This document shows positions 6,562 to 34,642 of a DNA stretch of 34,642 nt, piece by piece. The position numbers and the translations under genes are program-made. The notes under the pieces were generated by a model that made no database searches, was not told where the DNA came from, and saw only the letters and a list, made by a program, of their open reading frames with translations. The stretch lies in the IMG/VR virus record IMGVR_UViG_3300028008_000055, positions 1 through 34,642 of that record; one strand, given 5' to 3'. Source of the DNA: a virus. The stretch's first letter is position 1, and each line of letters starts with the position of its first letter.

Positions 6562-6763
6562 ATAAGTCACCGTGCTTAGGATCTGCCGCAGGATTTACCT
6601 GCCTCGAGTGCCTACTTACTTGGCTATGCCCGGCACATATACCTGTTGGTATTTTCTCAATCTTACCACCATTTGCCAAGAATTGCATAACTTCTTGATC
6701 TAGCTGCTTTTGCTTTGATCGCTTGTCAACAAATACTGGCGTCTCTCTTCTTCTAAAATCCAT
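6554..6763 (-). CDS. Hypothetical small protein (LANGGKIEKIPTG motif)
   Basis: This 69-residue protein begins MDFRRRETPVFVDKRSKQKQ. It then has a helix, LDQEVMQFLANGGKIEKIPTG (about 21-41), a motif I recognise from many small uncharacterised proteins in aquatic phages. It is basic overall and could bind DNA or RNA, but no defined fold is visible. The start overlaps the end of the CHC2 gene by 11 bases, and its stop overlaps the next start by 8 bases. Confidence 0.6.
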   Translation of the reverse strand: MDFRRRETPVFVDKRSKQKQLDQEVMQFLANGGKIEKIPTGICAGHSQVSRHSRQVNPAADPKHGDLYG

Positions 6764-7196
6764 ATGCCTGCTCTTTTAGCGGGTTCCAATCAGAGTTGTC
6801 TATCTGATCTATGCCCTTACGCTTTCTCTCGTCTCGTCTAGCGAGCACTACCTTAAGGTTCTTACGGTCGCTGTACTTCATTCGCTCACCGCGCTCTAGA
6901 GCCGCTTTGGCTATCATGATAAGGCCATCGTCTGCGTCCCTGGTCTTCTTGAGCATCCAGTGAGGATCGTGCAGCATCTCTCGTTTTTCGGAGAATAGCA
7001 CGTCTATCGGTAACCCTATAGCCTCTACCAGGTCTCGACCATTAGCTCCACACGAGTGGCAGTGAGCCAAGACCTTACCCTCCTTCTCTGCGATAGACAT
7101 TGACGGATTTTTGTCACCATGCACCGGGCAGCATGCCGTATATTTGTCACCTGACTTGCGAACCTTATCAAGCCTGTCCAGAATTTCTGCGAGCAT
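6753..7196 (-). CDS. CHC2-type primase zinc-finger protein without a catalytic domain
   Basis: This 147-residue protein has a primase-type zinc ribbon: C23-P-V-H26 and C46-H-S-C49, within YTACCPVHGDKNPSMS and VLAHCHSCGANGRDLVEAIG. It reads template DNA in primases of the DnaG/T7 gp4 type. The rest is a short, basic, helical tail (ALERGERMKYSDRKN, VVLARRDERKRKG). There is no TOPRIM or helicase domain, and no separate primase gene was found. It overlaps the helicase gene by 29 bases. It may recruit a host primase or act as a partner of the helicase. The zinc site is plain. The partner is inferred. Confidence 0.8.
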   Translation of the reverse strand: MLAEILDRLDKVRKSGDKYTACCPVHGDKNPSMSIAEKEGKVLAHCHSCGANGRDLVEAIGLPIDVLFSEKREMLHDPHWMLKKTRDADDGLIMIAKAALERGERMKYSDRKNLKVVLARRDERKRKGIDQIDNSDWNPLKEQAYGF

Positions 7197-8643
7197 GTGC
7201 CCTCCTTATCATCTTGTGCTTTATGAAACCGAGCACGTCATCGCTCTTAGGCTTCCTTGGTATCTTGTCTATGCCCTTTGGCCAAACCTTAAATTTCTCT
7301 CTGTAGGTGTATGCTGCCCAACCTTCGTTGTATCCCTGGTCTAAACTGTACCCGAGCAGCTCTTGATAGAACCGGGTCTTGTCTTCCATCGTAACCTTTT
7401 CGACTTTCTGTAGGATCTGATCGTCGTGGTAGATAGACTCATTCTTTGGTATCTCATAGCCGCAGCCAAAACAGCGTCTGCCGGTAAACAGTGTGCTGCA
7501 CTGCGGGCAGGTGTTCATTTTCGGCTCTTTCTCTTCTTTCTTTACTTGGTTCTCTTCCCTAAACTTCTTCTCCCCATCATCGAGGCTGATCGGCACGATG
7601 TCCTCTGGGAATCCGTGCTTGCGAAGGTTGCCGCTAAAATCTAAGTAAACGCTATCCTTCTTCTTGCCCTCATCTGTGCGCCATATGCGGCCTGCTCTCT
7701 GCACGAACAGCAGCTTAGACTTCGTGGGGTACATACAGCAAAGCAGGGACACCCCTGGATCATCGTATCCGACTGAGAGGATCATCGAGTTGCAGAGTAG
7801 CTGAAAGTCTCCTGCCTTGTGCGCCTCATAGAGTGCTATCCGCTCGTCCTCTGGCGTGTATCCAGATATATGCTCTGCGGTGATGCCGTTGGCGTTGAGT
7901 GCCCGACAGAGGGCCTTAGACTGCTCTATTGACGGCGAGAAGCATATGCCACGCCTACCCTTTCCGTGCAGCTTGATATTCTCAATGACGTCACCCTCAA
8001 GCACCGTGTCGGCCTCAATCGCCTTAGCTAGCGCCTTGGGGTCATAATCGCTGCCGCCAGTAGGTAGCGCTCTAGTCTTAATCTTAGAGGTGTCTATAGT
8101 GTGCCCGGCGTAGTAGTTCGTCGGCACTAGGTAACCTTGCTTGATCAGCTCACGAGGCGTGATGGGCACCACCAGGTCGGTAAAGATCTTGCCTAGTCCT
8201 TTGCTCAGCGGTGTCGCGCTAAGTCCGCAGTAGTAGGTGCCAATATTCCGTCGGTCCATGAGTTCCTGAAGGCCACGGTAAACGGTGTGCGCCTCGTCGA
8301 TTATCATGATTGAGTAGTCTGGGATATTCTTTTTGCGAATCAGTGTCTGGACCGAGCAGACTTGTATCAGGCTGTTGGGGTTGTAGCGGTAGTCCTGACC
8401 CTGCATGACAGAGAAGTCAGCGCCGAGCTGCTCCAGAGCTGTGCATGCCTGAGATACGAGCTTAATGCGGTCGCAAACAAAGAATCCACGCTTGCCACGC
8501 TTAGCTGCCTCCATGAGTATCCAACAGGCCACTAGCGTCTTCCCGAATCCACAGGGTGCGCTTAGGATGGGTCGCTTGCCCGCAGCGAGGGATGCCCTGA
8601 CCTGGTTGATGGCGTCAATTTGATGGGGTCTAAGCTCAATCAT
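7168..8643 (-). CDS. SF2 DEAH-box helicase with C-terminal zinc ribbon
   Basis: This 491-residue ATPase unwinds or remodels nucleic acid, probably during phage replication. It shows LRPHQ at 4-8, Walker A APCGFGKT at 29-36, DEAH at 116-119, SAT at 142-144 and QRAGRIWR at 315-322. This is the layout of the SSL2/RAD25-like phage helicases. After the helicase core comes an acidic/basic linker and a zinc ribbon with C379, C382, C391 and C394, then a helical C-terminus. It starts 8 bases inside the preceding zinc-finger gene and overlaps the CHC2 gene. With no polymerase in the window, this is the main replication enzyme encoded. Confidence 0.9.
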   Translation of the reverse strand: MIELRPHQIDAINQVRASLAAGKRPILSAPCGFGKTLVACWILMEAAKRGKRGFFVCDRIKLVSQACTALEQLGADFSVMQGQDYRYNPNSLIQVCSVQTLIRKKNIPDYSIMIIDEAHTVYRGLQELMDRRNIGTYYCGLSATPLSKGLGKIFTDLVVPITPRELIKQGYLVPTNYYAGHTIDTSKIKTRALPTGGSDYDPKALAKAIEADTVLEGDVIENIKLHGKGRRGICFSPSIEQSKALCRALNANGITAEHISGYTPEDERIALYEAHKAGDFQLLCNSMILSVGYDDPGVSLLCCMYPTKSKLLFVQRAGRIWRTDEGKKKDSVYLDFSGNLRKHGFPEDIVPISLDDGEKKFREENQVKKEEKEPKMNTCPQCSTLFTGRRCFGCGYEIPKNESIYHDDQILQKVEKVTMEDKTRFYQELLGYSLDQGYNEGWAAYTYREKFKVWPKGIDKIPRKPKSDDVLGFIKHKMIRRAHARRNSGQA

Positions 8644-10869: not shown

Positions 10870-11394
10870 TGCTTTCTCCTTTATTTTAGGCAGCAGTGCC
10901 CATTTTCCCCCGCAAACACACCTACGGCATTAGGTGTTCTTACGCTCCTCGAAAGGAAGGCCACTAGACCTGGTACTCATTACGACGATCCACAATGGTG
11001 AACCGCTCCCCCGCCAGACTTAACTGGACGCTATTTCAATGCCTAACTCACGACCTGGTGTGTGTGTGTTTGCGGGTTCCTGTTGACATGGGCGGGTCAG
11101 CGCAGGAGTTTTAGGTCGCTCGTCTCTCCCATTTCTGGGGCTGATTTACAGGGTCAGCTAACCATGAGCCAAGAGTACGTCTGGCTTTGCCGCACGGTTA
11201 TGATCAAATCTGGTAGAAAGATATGTTGATGAACACAACATATGGTGTACAATAGCCCTTGTCGGGTTTCTTGCTACACTTTCTTCGCAGTTTGAACTAG
11301 CCGGGATTCAGGGCCTTAACACCCCACCGACATTTAACTTTTACAGATTACTCTTACGGAAATGATTCTGCAAGCGAAAATGTAAATTCATCAG

Positions 11395-11451
11395 TTATGC
11401 TTTAGCTATTTCTTTTTGTTGTTGTGGTATATTGCTACTAGGTTGATTCAT
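11395..11451 (-). CDS. Possible 18-residue leader peptide
   Basis: ATG 11451 opens MNQPSSNIPQQQKEIAKA and stops at 11395. A GGGAG Shine-Dalgarno stands 5 bases upstream within AAGGGAGAACA, very like the ribosome sites of other early genes. The ribosome site is in the loop, and the ATG in the 3' arm, of a 7-bp hairpin (TGATTCA/TGAATCA). It could be a leader peptide or a chance frame antisense to a plus-strand RNA. Confidence 0.35.
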   Translation of the reverse strand: MNQPSSNIPQQQKEIAKA

Positions 11452-11522
11452 TGTTCTCCCTTGTTGAATCAGTCTTGCGATAAAAGCCATTTGAACCCAG
11501 GCGTCAAACCCTGGGTTTTTTT
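11440..11522 (+). ncRNA. Candidate short plus-strand sRNA with anti-SD loop
   Basis: An extended -10 (TGGTATATT, 11425-11433) could start a plus-strand RNA near 11440. It would hold a hairpin TGATTCA (11444-11450)/TGAATCA (11465-11471), with a loop containing TTCTCCC, and then the terminator. The loop can pair with phage ribosome sites of the form GGAGAAC. No -35 is visible. It could also be the 3' end of the larger RNA. Confidence 0.35.
11494..11522 (+). terminator. Rho-independent terminator facing the plus strand
   Basis: AACCCAGG (11494-11501) pairs perfectly with CCTGGGTT (11510-11517) across an 8-base loop, followed by a run of seven T residues on the plus strand (11516-11522). The other side lacks a T-run, so it only works for plus-strand transcripts. 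No plus-strand gene precedes it, which points to a non-coding RNA. Confidence 0.8.
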
Positions 11523-11526
11523 ATGC

Positions 11527-27721: not shown

Positions 27722-29227
27722 TCATCCTGCTACTTGAGCGCCTAACTGCAAATAGTCGAACAGTCCTGGCTGCTTGCTAGTGGTCTGAGTCTGAGCGTTA
27801 GTCTGAGAGCCACCGAACGCGCCTAGCTGAGTCTGTAGAGCTTGCTGAGGTGCGTTTGTGTATCCTGCGTACTGTGCTCTACCTGCGTCTATCAGAGCCT
27901 GATTAGCTGCCTGCTGCTGTAGACCTGCCTGAGCAATGTCTTGCTGTACGTTGCGAACCATTCCGAACCCGAGGTTGCCGATGTTAGCTAGTTGACCTGC
28001 CGCCTGTAGACGCTGACCACCTGCCTGTAATCCTGCTGCTTGGTTAGCTGTCTGAGCCTGCATCATTGCCGCTTGGTTAGCCAGAGCTGCTTGGTTGCTA
28101 GCATTTGCACCGAACTGCGAAGCTTGGTTTGCTGCTGCTGCGTTCTGTAATGCTGCTACGTTCTGTGCTTGAGCGCCAAACTGAGCTGCTTGGTTTTGAG
28201 CCGCAACATTAGAGAGGTTGGTTTGTGTTCCTAGTTGAGCGTTCTGTAAGTTTGTTTGAGTGCCTAGCTGAGCGTTTTGCAGTCCGGCAACATTCTGAGC
28301 CTGCGCTCCAAACTGAGCAGCCTGATTAGCCGCTGTCATATTAGCAAGATTAGCTTGAGTGCCTAATTGTGCATTTTGTAGGCCTGCAACATTCTGCGCT
28401 TGGGCACCGAATTGAGAAGCCTGATTAGCCGCCGCCTGATTAGCCATCTGCGCTTGCTGACCAAGGTTCGCAGTTGTAGTCGCTGCCTGTAAGCCTGTAG
28501 CTTGATTAGCAAGTCCTGCCTGCATGCGTGTAGCGATGTCCTGCTGCGCTGCCTGCTGAGCCTGAGTGAAACCTGCTTGACGCAATCCTGCCGCTGTACG
28601 AGCTGCCTGCTCTGCAAATGCACGATTAGTCTCTGCCTCTGCAATACCCTGGCGTGAACCACCGAATGCGCCTGCCGCCTGAGCTTGCGCTCCAGTGACG
28701 TTCTGCTGCATCAATCTTTGACGCTCTAGGTCAGATAGAGACTGCTGTACTACCTGGCTCTCGTAAGGATTAAAGTAAGGGTCTAGGCTAGTGCCTGCAA
28801 GTTGCCCTGCCTGCACTCTTTCCGCTGTAACAGGACCCACCCCGGCGATACGCTCTGCGTCATATCCCTGTGCCGCCGCTCTCTCCGCTGCTGCTCTTTC
28901 GGCTGTATAACCTTGGGCTGTCGCTCTCTCTGCTGCTGCTCTCTCTGCTGCCGCTTGCTGCGCTGTGTAGCCTTGAGCTGCTGCTTCTCGAGCTGTGTAA
29001 CCCTGAGATCCTGCTTGAGCTGCTTGGATGTTTATAGGAGTGATACCCATGCCCGCAGCAGTTCCTGTGGCAGCCTGACCCAAAGTATTAGCTATTGTCT
29101 GAGCAGCATTACCATCAACAATCGGATTGCGAGTAGTAGCACCGCTAAAGGTGTTAAATTGCTGAGGTTGGTTAGCCTGAGCCATATTAGGCCGAGGAGT
29201 CATTGTGTTGCTAGCCGGACCCGCCAT
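27722..29227 (-). CDS. Ala/Gln-rich repeat virion protein
   Basis: From ATG 29227 it has 501 residues, dominated by repeats. The N-terminal part has AQGYTAERAAAERAAA-like units in tandem, and the middle has copies of QAAQFGAQAQNVAGLQNAQL, with degenerate forms. It is almost wholly helical. ATG 29227 has AGGAG seven bases upstream. A start at 29308 would overlap the upstream gene by 71 bases. Extended helical Ala/Gln-rich proteins suit DNA-ejection or tube-forming roles. That role is inference. Confidence 0.6.
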   Translation of the reverse strand: MAGPASNTMTPRPNMAQANQPQQFNTFSGATTRNPIVDGNAAQTIANTLGQAATGTAAGMGITPINIQAAQAGSQGYTAREAAAQGYTAQQAAAERAAAERATAQGYTAERAAAERAAAQGYDAERIAGVGPVTAERVQAGQLAGTSLDPYFNPYESQVVQQSLSDLERQRLMQQNVTGAQAQAAGAFGGSRQGIAEAETNRAFAEQAARTAAGLRQAGFTQAQQAAQQDIATRMQAGLANQATGLQAATTTANLGQQAQMANQAAANQASQFGAQAQNVAGLQNAQLGTQANLANMTAANQAAQFGAQAQNVAGLQNAQLGTQTNLQNAQLGTQTNLSNVAAQNQAAQFGAQAQNVAALQNAAAANQASQFGANASNQAALANQAAMMQAQTANQAAGLQAGGQRLQAAGQLANIGNLGFGMVRNVQQDIAQAGLQQQAANQALIDAGRAQYAGYTNAPQQALQTQLGAFGGSQTNAQTQTTSKQPGLFDYLQLGAQVAG

Positions 29228-29237
29228 AGTGGTGCTC

Positions 29238-29726
29238 CTAGTTGATTCGTCGGCCGTTGGCGAAATCGCCACCACCGTAACCGCCGCCGTAGCCACCTGT
29301 TTCATCAATCATGATATCGAAACCGGGAATGCGAGTTACATCAGTGCCAGTGCCATAAGGATTAACAAACTGCTTTTCGATCAGAGCAGCCTGACCAGGT
29401 CGTCGCGCTTTGAGTTCTGCTACTGCCTGCTCGTAAAGAGGTGCAGATGAGTAGCCTCGGACGCCACCGTCAAAGGTCTGTGCTTGAGGCATACCGGCCA
29501 TTGCGTCCATCTGAGGCATTAGGCCAAAGGCTGATCCAAAGTTAGCCGCTGACTGCATAGCTGCTGCCTGCATAGGCGTGAACGCTGCAACGTCAGGGCC
29601 GTAGTAGGGAGTGTAGCCGATCTGGCTGATTTCTTTGCCCTGGGCGATGTTGGCCCTAGATGCGTCCTCGATGTACTTGGGTATCTCTACCTGTGTAGTT
29701 TGGCTGCCGCCTTTTCCACCTGACAT
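29238..29726 (-). CDS. Virion structural protein, conserved podovirus type
   Basis: This 162-residue protein begins MSGGKGGSQTTQVEIPKYIE, followed by DASRANIAQGKEISQIGYTP and AAFTPMQAAAMQSAANFGSA, and ends in a Gly-rich patch (GGYGGGYGGGDFANG). I recall this N-terminal phrase from small structural proteins of aquatic podoviruses. It is probably an internal virion or tail-connector part. It starts one base after the stop of the gp13-like gene, which suggests coupled translation. Confidence 0.6.
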   Translation of the reverse strand: MSGGKGGSQTTQVEIPKYIEDASRANIAQGKEISQIGYTPYYGPDVAAFTPMQAAAMQSAANFGSAFGLMPQMDAMAGMPQAQTFDGGVRGYSSAPLYEQAVAELKARRPGQAALIEKQFVNPYGTGTDVTRIPGFDIMIDETGGYGGGYGGGDFANGRRIN

Positions 29727-32757: not shown

Positions 32758-34642
32758 CTATGCTATTGCTATATATGAATACTCACTGCCAGCTTCATTA
32801 AAATTACCATTCACGCCACCAAGCACTCGTATTCCATTTGTAATTGGGTCTATACAATCATTGCTTGCGTAATAGGCTCCGCTACTAATCCTTATTCTAG
32901 GGTCATTTCCAGCAACGATGCCCAAAGCACTATTCCACATAATCCAATGTGCATTACCACTGGTTCCAGAATCTAATTTTTTGACTATAAAAAGTCTTGG
33001 AGCAAACCCTAAAGTAACATCAACATTGCTTGAGCTTCCGCTATATGTTCCAATTTTGCTAACTCCATCAACCGAGGCTAATAAATAAGCAACAATTTTT
33101 TCACCGCTTCCATTCAAACCTCTTTCGTTACCTACTCTAAATGTGGTTGATGTAGGAGAAGACGGAAATATATTTGATATGTTTGTGGATGAAGGTATGC
33201 CATTTGAATTAAACAGCATATAGTCTCCTTCAAAACTTCCAAAAGGACTCCCTAAGTACGCAAACCAATTGTCTGTATTTGTTAGCGACTTAACTATTAT
33301 CAATTCGGGCGTTACTCCAAGATTGTGATTTATGTCTCTGTTTGACGTTCCATCACCACTCCAAGCAACGACATCAAAAAAACCACTAGCTCTTGTAAAC
33401 CCTAAGACTTGTCTTGGACTAAACCCACTAACACTATTTGCATAATATGGTGCAAAACCATCCATATAATCCCATTCGGTTGTCGCTGATGTATTGGCAG
33501 CTGCGTCAGAAGTTGGGGTTAAATAACCTTTGCCAATCAGCCTTGTAAAAATTTTAACGCCGTCACCATTAAGAAATTGCCAACCCCAATCAGCCAAATT
33601 TCCTGTTGTTAGCTGTTGGTAATCAGTAGTCTCTGAATAGCTTCTTACACCAAAAACCTCAGTCCCCGACTCAGGAGTCTTTATTGGGCGGCGTATGGCT
33701 ATGTAGATGTAGGAATTGCCTGATACATTCGGATTATAAGTAGCATTAACTAACTTAAATCCAGTTGAATTTATGGAAAAAGCGTTTGACCCGTCTTCTG
33801 CGTTAGACAGGTTTGCCATTAAACGTTGGTAAGAGTCTGAGGTGTTTGCTGTAAAACCTCTCATCGTATCTACTAAATACCAATCGCTTGAGGCTGTAGA
33901 GTTTTTTACCATCAACCACTGAGGCTCAAACCCTAAGTCAATCTCAGGCCCATTTGTAGACCCATTACCAGTATAACTCCCACACTTAATAATACTCTCG
34001 CTGCCATCGTCTCCAAAGCCTCCTGCGTCTGAGGCGAATAGGTAGGCGACGTATGTCCACCCATCCCTATTTACAGTGTTATCAGTCCCTACCGTAAATA
34101 CACTATCTGTAGGTGTTGTATCATTCCATTTAGTTACGTCATCAAGCGCAGCAGTCGTTTGATTAAGGCGAATTTCATGGGTGTTGCCCAACGATTTATG
34201 GTAGACCTCCCAGTTAACATTTGCATTTGTAGATTTAACTATCACCATTCCCGGAACAGAGCCAAGATTATGCGCCACAGTCCTTCCTGCAACACCATCC
34301 CCAGTATAAGTCACAACATCAAAGAACTTCTCAGCCTTGCGGAATGTCCATGAGGCGTAGGTACTGCCTGCGATAGTTACATCGTTATCCGCACCCGACC
34401 AAGAGTATCCGTCTGAGTTCATTGTAATAGAATAAGATTGGTTTGCTGCTGCGGCAGTTTGGTCTGTCATTAATCTAGAAGAAGCACCACGTTCCGAATC
34501 AAAAAGTATGTGCGACCGAGCATCTGTTGCTCTTCTTTTTGTCCAAACAAGACCACCTGAGTCTGCAAGGTCAATTCCATTAGTAATCGTTATTGCAGAG
34601 CTAACCCCGTCATACAAATAAGTCGAGAAGACATCCTCAACG
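32758..34642 (-). CDS. Tail fibre protein, C-terminal part and second allele of the N-terminal region
   Basis: The frame is open to the right edge, where it reads VEDVFSTYLYDGVSS, so the true start is off the window. It ends at 32758. Four related beta-rich modules follow one another: FDVVTYTGDGVAGRTVAHNL, SYTGNGSTNGPEIDLGFEPQ, FDVVAWSGDGTSNRDINHNL and KIGTYSGSSSNVDVTLGFAP. Each includes an IVK/MVK strand and an NLG or LGF turn. This modular, lectin-like build is typical of fibres, where modules are swapped. Bases 33834-34642 are the homologue of bases 1-806 in the same frame, giving two variants of one region. Confidence 0.75.
   Translation of the reverse strand, partial: VEDVFSTYLYDGVSSAITITNGIDLADSGGLVWTKRRATDARSHILFDSERGASSRLMTDQTAAAANQSYSITMNSDGYSWSGADNDVTIAGSTYASWTFRKAEKFFDVVTYTGDGVAGRTVAHNLGSVPGMVIVKSTNANVNWEVYHKSLGNTHEIRLNQTTAALDDVTKWNDTTPTDSVFTVGTDNTVNRDGWTYVAYLFASDAGGFGDDGSESIIKCGSYTGNGSTNGPEIDLGFEPQWLMVKNSTASSDWYLVDTMRGFTANTSDSYQRLMANLSNAEDGSNAFSINSTGFKLVNATYNPNVSGNSYIYIAIRRPIKTPESGTEVFGVRSYSETTDYQQLTTGNLADWGWQFLNGDGVKIFTRLIGKGYLTPTSDAAANTSATTEWDYMDGFAPYYANSVSGFSPRQVLGFTRASGFFDVVAWSGDGTSNRDINHNLGVTPELIIVKSLTNTDNWFAYLGSPFGSFEGDYMLFNSNGIPSSTNISNIFPSSPTSTTFRVGNERGLNGSGEKIVAYLLASVDGVSKIGTYSGSSSNVDVTLGFAPRLFIVKKLDSGTSGNAHWIMWNSALGIVAGNDPRIRISSGAYYASNDCIDPITNGIRVLGGVNGNFNEAGSEYSYIAIA
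33834..34053. repeat. End repeat shared with the left edge
   Basis: This stretch matches bases 1-220 in 217 positions. The first 127 bases are identical and the mismatches are at left positions 128, 134 and 137. After it, the copies diverge until the last 31 bases of the window, which match 776-806. The spacing differs by exactly three bases. This fits an assembly ending in two alleles of a circular genome, or two adjacent paralogous genes. Confidence 0.85.

Follow-up and report, generated by a model that had tools for sequence, protein, structure and literature searches.

What is encoded, if anything, by the longest gap in a phage genome whose predicted genes all lie on the minus strand? The question is raised by positions 10870-11526 of the window, that is, the complete 34.6-kb virus record analyzed here, which encodes an SU10-type portal and capsid genes. 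This gap of 658 nt had been described in the initial annotation as the only long gene-free region; it is indeed the longest one, but a second-longest gap of 379 bases without genes is found at 29309-29686. The same annotation proposed that the gap holds a large structured non-coding RNA, and one of its arguments was a perfect 13-bp helix joining 10909-10921 with 11064-11076. This helix is present in the window sequence, but the chance of finding such a 13-mer, which had been put at about 0.003, turns out to be about 0.02, and because an inverted repeat of at least 13 bases arises in 1 of 60 dinucleotide shuffles the helix is by itself indecisive. Single-sequence folding was mildly better than that of shuffled sequences, with z values of -1.97 for the plus strand and -1.29 for the minus strand.

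A homologue search of IMG/VR, using neighboring proteins and conserved motifs as queries, recovered the RNA in about 25 distinct uncultivated phages, which range from close (97%) through intermediate (79-86%) to distant relatives. The non-redundant set comprises 25 relatives, and the alignment employed for the structure test has 24 members. The DNA of one relative, L002, is 86% identical to the window in the gene-free block and 75% identical in ninG, a difference that argues for strong constraint on the gene-free block. A conserved protein frame, the finding that the initial annotation had opposed to its RNA, does not run across the region: on both strands the longest stop-free runs are short and the frames differ between members. 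A covariance model of the 123-position core also recovers members outside its building set, namely L277 (E 7e-25), L082 (9e-7) and L088 (4e-18), the last being nearly identical to L085, which was in that set. In L082 and L068-L072 (between ninG and helicase) the first hairpin and the promoter are common, while the downstream domain is seemingly different; counting these divergent cases, the RNA family probably extends beyond the members analyzed here. Pattern matches in genome contigs (L160-L180) were judged to be due to chance, given that the flanking conserved motifs are missing. Family members measure about 350-520 nt, and the RNA of the window about 445 nt (10893..11338, minus strand).

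The structure tested on the 24-member alignment consists of 72 pairs in 16 helices. Paired cells amounted to 89.5% (76.3% in shuffles), 40 pairs were changed on both sides (26 in shuffles) and the double-sided changed cells numbered 224, compared to 68 +/- 6.5 in shuffles. The covariation score of 0.383 (0.160 in shuffles) was reached by none of the 500 shuffles. When the partners were slid by 1-3 columns all measures collapsed, leaving 30-45 changed cells; the structure was partly drawn from the tested alignment and is consequently favored over the slid versions, yet its double-sided change still lies far outside the shuffles. An all-pairs covariation test with a tree-based null retained 4 canonical pairs in 3 helices at E <= 0.1, and it is the low power of this test with 25 sequences that gives weight to the structure-targeted counts.

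Read from its predicted start at about 11338, the minus-strand RNA would open with a hairpin (11300..11331, helix 1) in which 100% of the cells are paired and the changes are one-sided only. This is followed by a covarying hairpin that occurs in GCC/GGC and UUC/GAA types (11167..11186, helix 3) and by two neighboring hairpins (11128..11158) that are part of the covariation tests. A long-range helix between 11113..11119 (5' strand) and 11050..11056 (3' strand), helix 6 of the structure test, comes next in the 5' to 3' direction and encloses a hairpin at 11078..11107 with six double-sided pairs (helices 7 and 8). The other long-range helix, P, pairs 11068..11076 (5' strand) with 10909..10917 (3' strand); seven of its nine pairs are double-sided (helix 11), and in the window it extends to the 13 bp mentioned above. 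Between its strands lie a covarying hairpin whose four pairs are all double-sided (11014..11027, helix 12), a G-U-rich hairpin of nine pairs (10985..11006) and two neighboring tetraloop hairpins (10946-10957 and 10958-10971), the second of which is double-sided in all pairs. At the 3' edge, the loop of the 11078..11107 hairpin can form a pseudoknot. This pairing had been placed at 10898-10902 with 11089-11093; it does exist and covaries, one base off the proposed position, as GCCCAT at 10898-10903 with ATGGGC at 11088-11093, the 3' half reading AUGGGC on the RNA. Most members carry the AUGGG/CCCAU variant, replaced by GACGGG/CCCGUC in L201-L206, by GACCGG/CCGGUC in L207 and by GGGA/UCCC in L208. 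The predicted pseudoknot closes the conserved fold at its 3' end and is independently supported; beyond it, conservation declines over some 15 nt, to about 10885. Several lineages are suggestive of a two-state switch, with two copies of CCGAC as alternative partners of the 5' GUCGGUGGG strand; it was set aside as it fails to extend in L208.

Which strand carries this RNA was the point on which the initial annotation had to be revised. It had assigned the RNA to the plus strand, opposite every gene, and in favor of that reading both strands allow the helices to be drawn and a terminator is present on the plus strand. However, folding gives a better score for the minus strand than for the plus strand, and in a count of the pairs for which G-U on one strand corresponds to A-C on the other, the tested helices read as minus RNA gave 140 G-U versus 20 A-C cells (48 versus 4 in the hairpin at 10985..11006). 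The G-U argument originally used for the plus strand thus points to the minus strand once homologues are included. Likewise, when the minus strand is read, a GAAA tetraloop caps the hairpin at 11128-11139 in 24 of 24 members, and 27 of the 48 loops of the two hairpins at 10946-10971 are of the UNCG or GNRA type; no GNRA or UNCG loop appears in these three hairpins on the opposite strand. These counts, the fold scores and the tetraloops assign the RNA to the minus strand, on which the genes lie and where the promoter described below also has a fixed position. Plus transcription is probably limited to about 11260 onwards, and a large plus-strand RNA is considered very improbable; the conserved plus promoter and terminator had been taken as support for it, an argument overturned by the tetraloops and the G-U/A-C count. 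The same evidence bears on a DNA-level element, either a single-stranded origin or a packaging site, with the hairpins acting as DNA. Its location adjoining replication genes would suit such an element, but a DNA hairpin should have neither the G-U bias nor GNRA/UNCG loops confined to one strand, and this explanation is hardly credible either. As for the proposal of a large structured non-coding RNA itself, it is borne out by compensatory changes in 40 of the 72 pairs and by the covarying pseudoknot, and comparative sequence analysis makes it nearly certain that the gap RNA is genuine and structured and that it belongs to the minus strand.

The sense RNA very probably has its own sigma70-like promoter. 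The best sigma70-like site is found 60 bases upstream of a conserved GTCGG, in the same place in 25 of 25 members, with p values of 0.01-0.04 in 15 of them; examples are TTGAAA-17-TAACAT, TTGCAA-17-TACTAT and TTGTCA-17-TAATAT. The window's own version, TTGCAG-17-TAATCT (11345..11373, minus strand; -35 at 11373-11368, -10 at 11350-11345), is weak, with p 0.22. On the minus strand no terminator follows the pseudoknot, and T-runs of at least 5 within the RNA are absent from 22 of the 25 members, so that the sense transcript probably enters the operon or gets processed.

Downstream of the RNA, the window encodes an SF2 DNA helicase (7168..8643, minus strand; Pfam ResIII, DEAD, Helicase_C) and a CHC2 zinc-ribbon primase-like protein (6753..7196, minus strand; Pfam PF01807, PHROG DNA primase). 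In homologues with enough sequence, the strand of the RNA also carries an SF2 helicase 3' of it, either immediately adjacent or no more than about 2.4 kb away. By contrast, the first downstream gene varies by lineage (helicase, a 122-aa protein or a small zinc protein), and upstream of the RNA there is either a ninG operon or divergent recombination genes. Since the flanking genes vary while the helicase stays, the role of the RNA is expected at the level of the operon or locus and not of one start codon. This arrangement raises the possibility that the RNA acts in cis as a 5' leader, regulating how the helicase-primase operon is expressed without priming replication; it could be an antisense-regulated leader, a put-like RNA for processive antitermination or a translational switch based on the pseudoknot. 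Such a leader would account for the RNA having its own promoter and no terminator after it, for its constant location on the helicase strand and for a next gene that often begins within tens of bases. On the other hand, the first downstream gene is not conserved, which makes control of a single start codon unlikely, and the scarcity of T-runs makes intrinsic attenuation inside the leader unlikely too, a candidate that was rejected for this reason. Overall, the leader explanation is regarded as rather doubtful.

A second transcript is suggested by the plus strand. The terminator that the initial annotation assigned to its structured RNA is present as a hairpin (11493-11518) plus a T-run, but most likely ends a short antisense RNA instead. 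This Rho-independent terminator (11493..11524, plus strand) is conserved and, in all full-length members examined, is located immediately upstream of the sense promoter, a position from which it probably ends an antisense RNA; the corresponding hairpin of L085, L087 and L206 is flanked by T-runs on either side. With the upstream genes being divergent in several lineages (L139, L149, L153, L189 and L195), there is no other obvious transcript for it to stop. A probable antisense promoter, TTGATG-16-TACAAT (11226..11253, plus strand), lies inside the sense RNA and is found at one position in about 20 of the 25 members. Divergent members have near-consensus versions (TTGACN-17/18-GATAAT, namely TTGACC-17-GATAAT and TTGACT-18-GATAAT), while the usual promoter is missing from L158 and L195. 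From the conserved promoter and the conserved terminator, it is likely that a short plus-strand RNA (11260..11520 in the window) starts inside the sense RNA and reads back over its start, and over the first hairpin, to the terminator. This antisense RNA would measure about 130 nt in most relatives and be longer in the window because of a 124-base segment, 11392-11515, which parts the sense promoter from the terminator. The segment is absent in L059/L137, its junction lying at the T-run of the terminator. The predicted antisense overlap stops short of the pseudoknot domain. Two minor observations concern this transcript: its segment is weakly like Rfam ar14, an alphaproteobacterial sRNA, with below-gathering matches at L141:1284-1401 (E 0.002) and L206:2422-2520 (E 0.04), both on the opposite strand, and the L206-type terminator loop carries CCUCCC, resembling an anti-Shine-Dalgarno loop.

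The initial annotation had wondered whether the RNA belongs to GOLLD or ROOL. Neither these nor any other Rfam family gave a covariance-model match at the gathering score: Rfam 15, with the RNAI model included, had 0 matches in the window and 10 relatives, and permissive searches (E <= 10 or E <= 5) returned nothing credible, only weak terminator-like sRNA matches. DNA searches found no credible homologue in named phages (three members as queries) or in plasmids (window as query), and a covariance-model search with strict filters and no positive control found none in 667 genomes, of which 298 belong to a single alphaproteobacterial family and 369 to a gammaproteobacterial class. The gap RNA is, as judged from its sequence relatives, a new family of large phage RNA with an intricate predicted fold. 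GOLLD is associated with tRNA genes in phages. ARAGORN finds neither a tRNA nor a tmRNA in the window, and the RNA described here is tied to a replication operon and has no Rfam match, features that separate it from GOLLD and ROOL despite being, like them, a large, ornate, structured RNA borne by phages (PMC12286853). A related explanation is that of a trans-acting structured RNA, GOLLD/ROOL-like, cut from the operon transcript, in which the antisense would only set its level. The size, the many tetraloops, the closed pseudoknot fold and the conservation amid changing neighbors would all fit; nevertheless, the RNA is always tied to replication genes and has no terminator, recognized processing site or Rfam match, and we consider a trans-acting role improbable.

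In plasmids such as ColE1 and IncB/IncI, structured RNAs under antisense control are a recurrent feature of replication genes. The window RNA is not assigned to GOLLD, ROOL or ColE1 RNA II and, by anatomy, appears most like an antisense-controlled replication RNA. Like ColE1 RNA II, it would be a long sense RNA with its own promoter (by sequence) next to replication functions, and, like RNA I, the predicted short antisense starts about 80-110 nt inside and reads back past the sense start. Unlike that pair, it has no sequence match to them, its transcript appears to continue into protein genes, it has a 3' pseudoknot fold and a terminator upstream of the sense promoter, and priming at a fixed origin, which in the ColE1 type goes with a persistent RNA-DNA hybrid and RNase H cleavage, is only proposed here. 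The repZ leader of IncB/IncI-alpha, with RNA I, combines an antisense RNA, a leader pseudoknot and a downstream replication gene. The window RNA resembles it by description in these three respects, but its pseudoknot is far from the antisense overlap and its first downstream gene varies. The put antitermination RNAs of HK022 are structured phage leaders of about 70 nt at the head of an operon, a description shared by the window RNA, which is about 445 nt long. A phage precedent is provided by non-RepA mycobacteriophages, whose prophages rely for replication on a region from which a non-coding RNA is expressed (PMC7157519). These RNA-based origins (Alma, LadyBird and others) belong to temperate cluster A actinobacteriophages with parABS and extrachromosomal prophages (PMC7157519). 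An origin of this type is expected to suffice for autonomous replication and to lie next to parABS. By description they are likewise phage non-coding RNAs, a few hundred nt in length, with a link to replication in the absence of repA, but no parABS is found in the annotated part of the window phage.

It is by analogy with these plasmid antisense systems and the mycobacteriophage region that replication control is ranked first, ahead of control of operon expression and, last, of a trans-acting RNA. As a tentative leading model, an antisense-gated sense RNA may control or start phage DNA replication. An antisense RNA expressed from inside the sense RNA, and crossing its start, would anneal to the initial 75-100 nt of the growing sense RNA and affect the formation of the fold further downstream. 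Once folded, the sense RNA would act in cis, beside the helicase and primase genes, in the simplest case serving the replication machinery of the host as an initiator or primer made of RNA; gating of the helicase-primase operon is the nearest alternative to that role. Counted in favor of a replication role are the fold, the promoters, the plus terminator, the constancy of the helicase, the conservation, the mycobacteriophage precedent and the lack of a recognized polymerase or initiator, none having been recognized among the window genes tested. Counted against it are the absence of origin-like DNA (no conserved DNA marking an origin, including a downstream element, was seen outside the RNA), the lack of a GC-skew switch near the RNA, a transcript that seems to enter protein genes, an antisense overlap that falls short of the pseudoknot, the two members without an antisense promoter and the weak promoter of the window. 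More specifically, an RNA-based, antisense-controlled origin might exist in small (about 34 kb) phages, with a structured RNA replacing the initiator protein; the phage in question encodes a zinc-ribbon primase along with an SF2 helicase, and no polymerase has been recognized in it. This last proposal is, in our estimate, unlikely.

The RNA family described here is kept across phages with shuffled neighbors yet always ahead of helicase/primase genes. If the RNA starts or gates replication, it would constitute a compact and testable RNA-based replication switch, and an RNA-based phage origin would then be found beyond mycobacteriophage prophages and on a new RNA fold. Even if it were a mere leader, it would represent an undescribed class of phage RNA with a likely antisense partner, and a new large fold with a covarying pseudoknot is well suited to structural work.

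Three further features of the window were observed. Its ends (1-806 and 33834-34642) overlap imperfectly through a DUF7483 tail gene, being 98.6% identical over 220 bases and falling to 75%, which probably means that the map is circular and nearly complete with a tail gene that varies, or else that strains are mixed. Two neighboring 90-base repeats, 80% alike, lie at 28256-28444 within an ORF of 528 aa, and a class 3 lipase-like gene (Pfam PF01764) is carried by the phage at 15907-16572.
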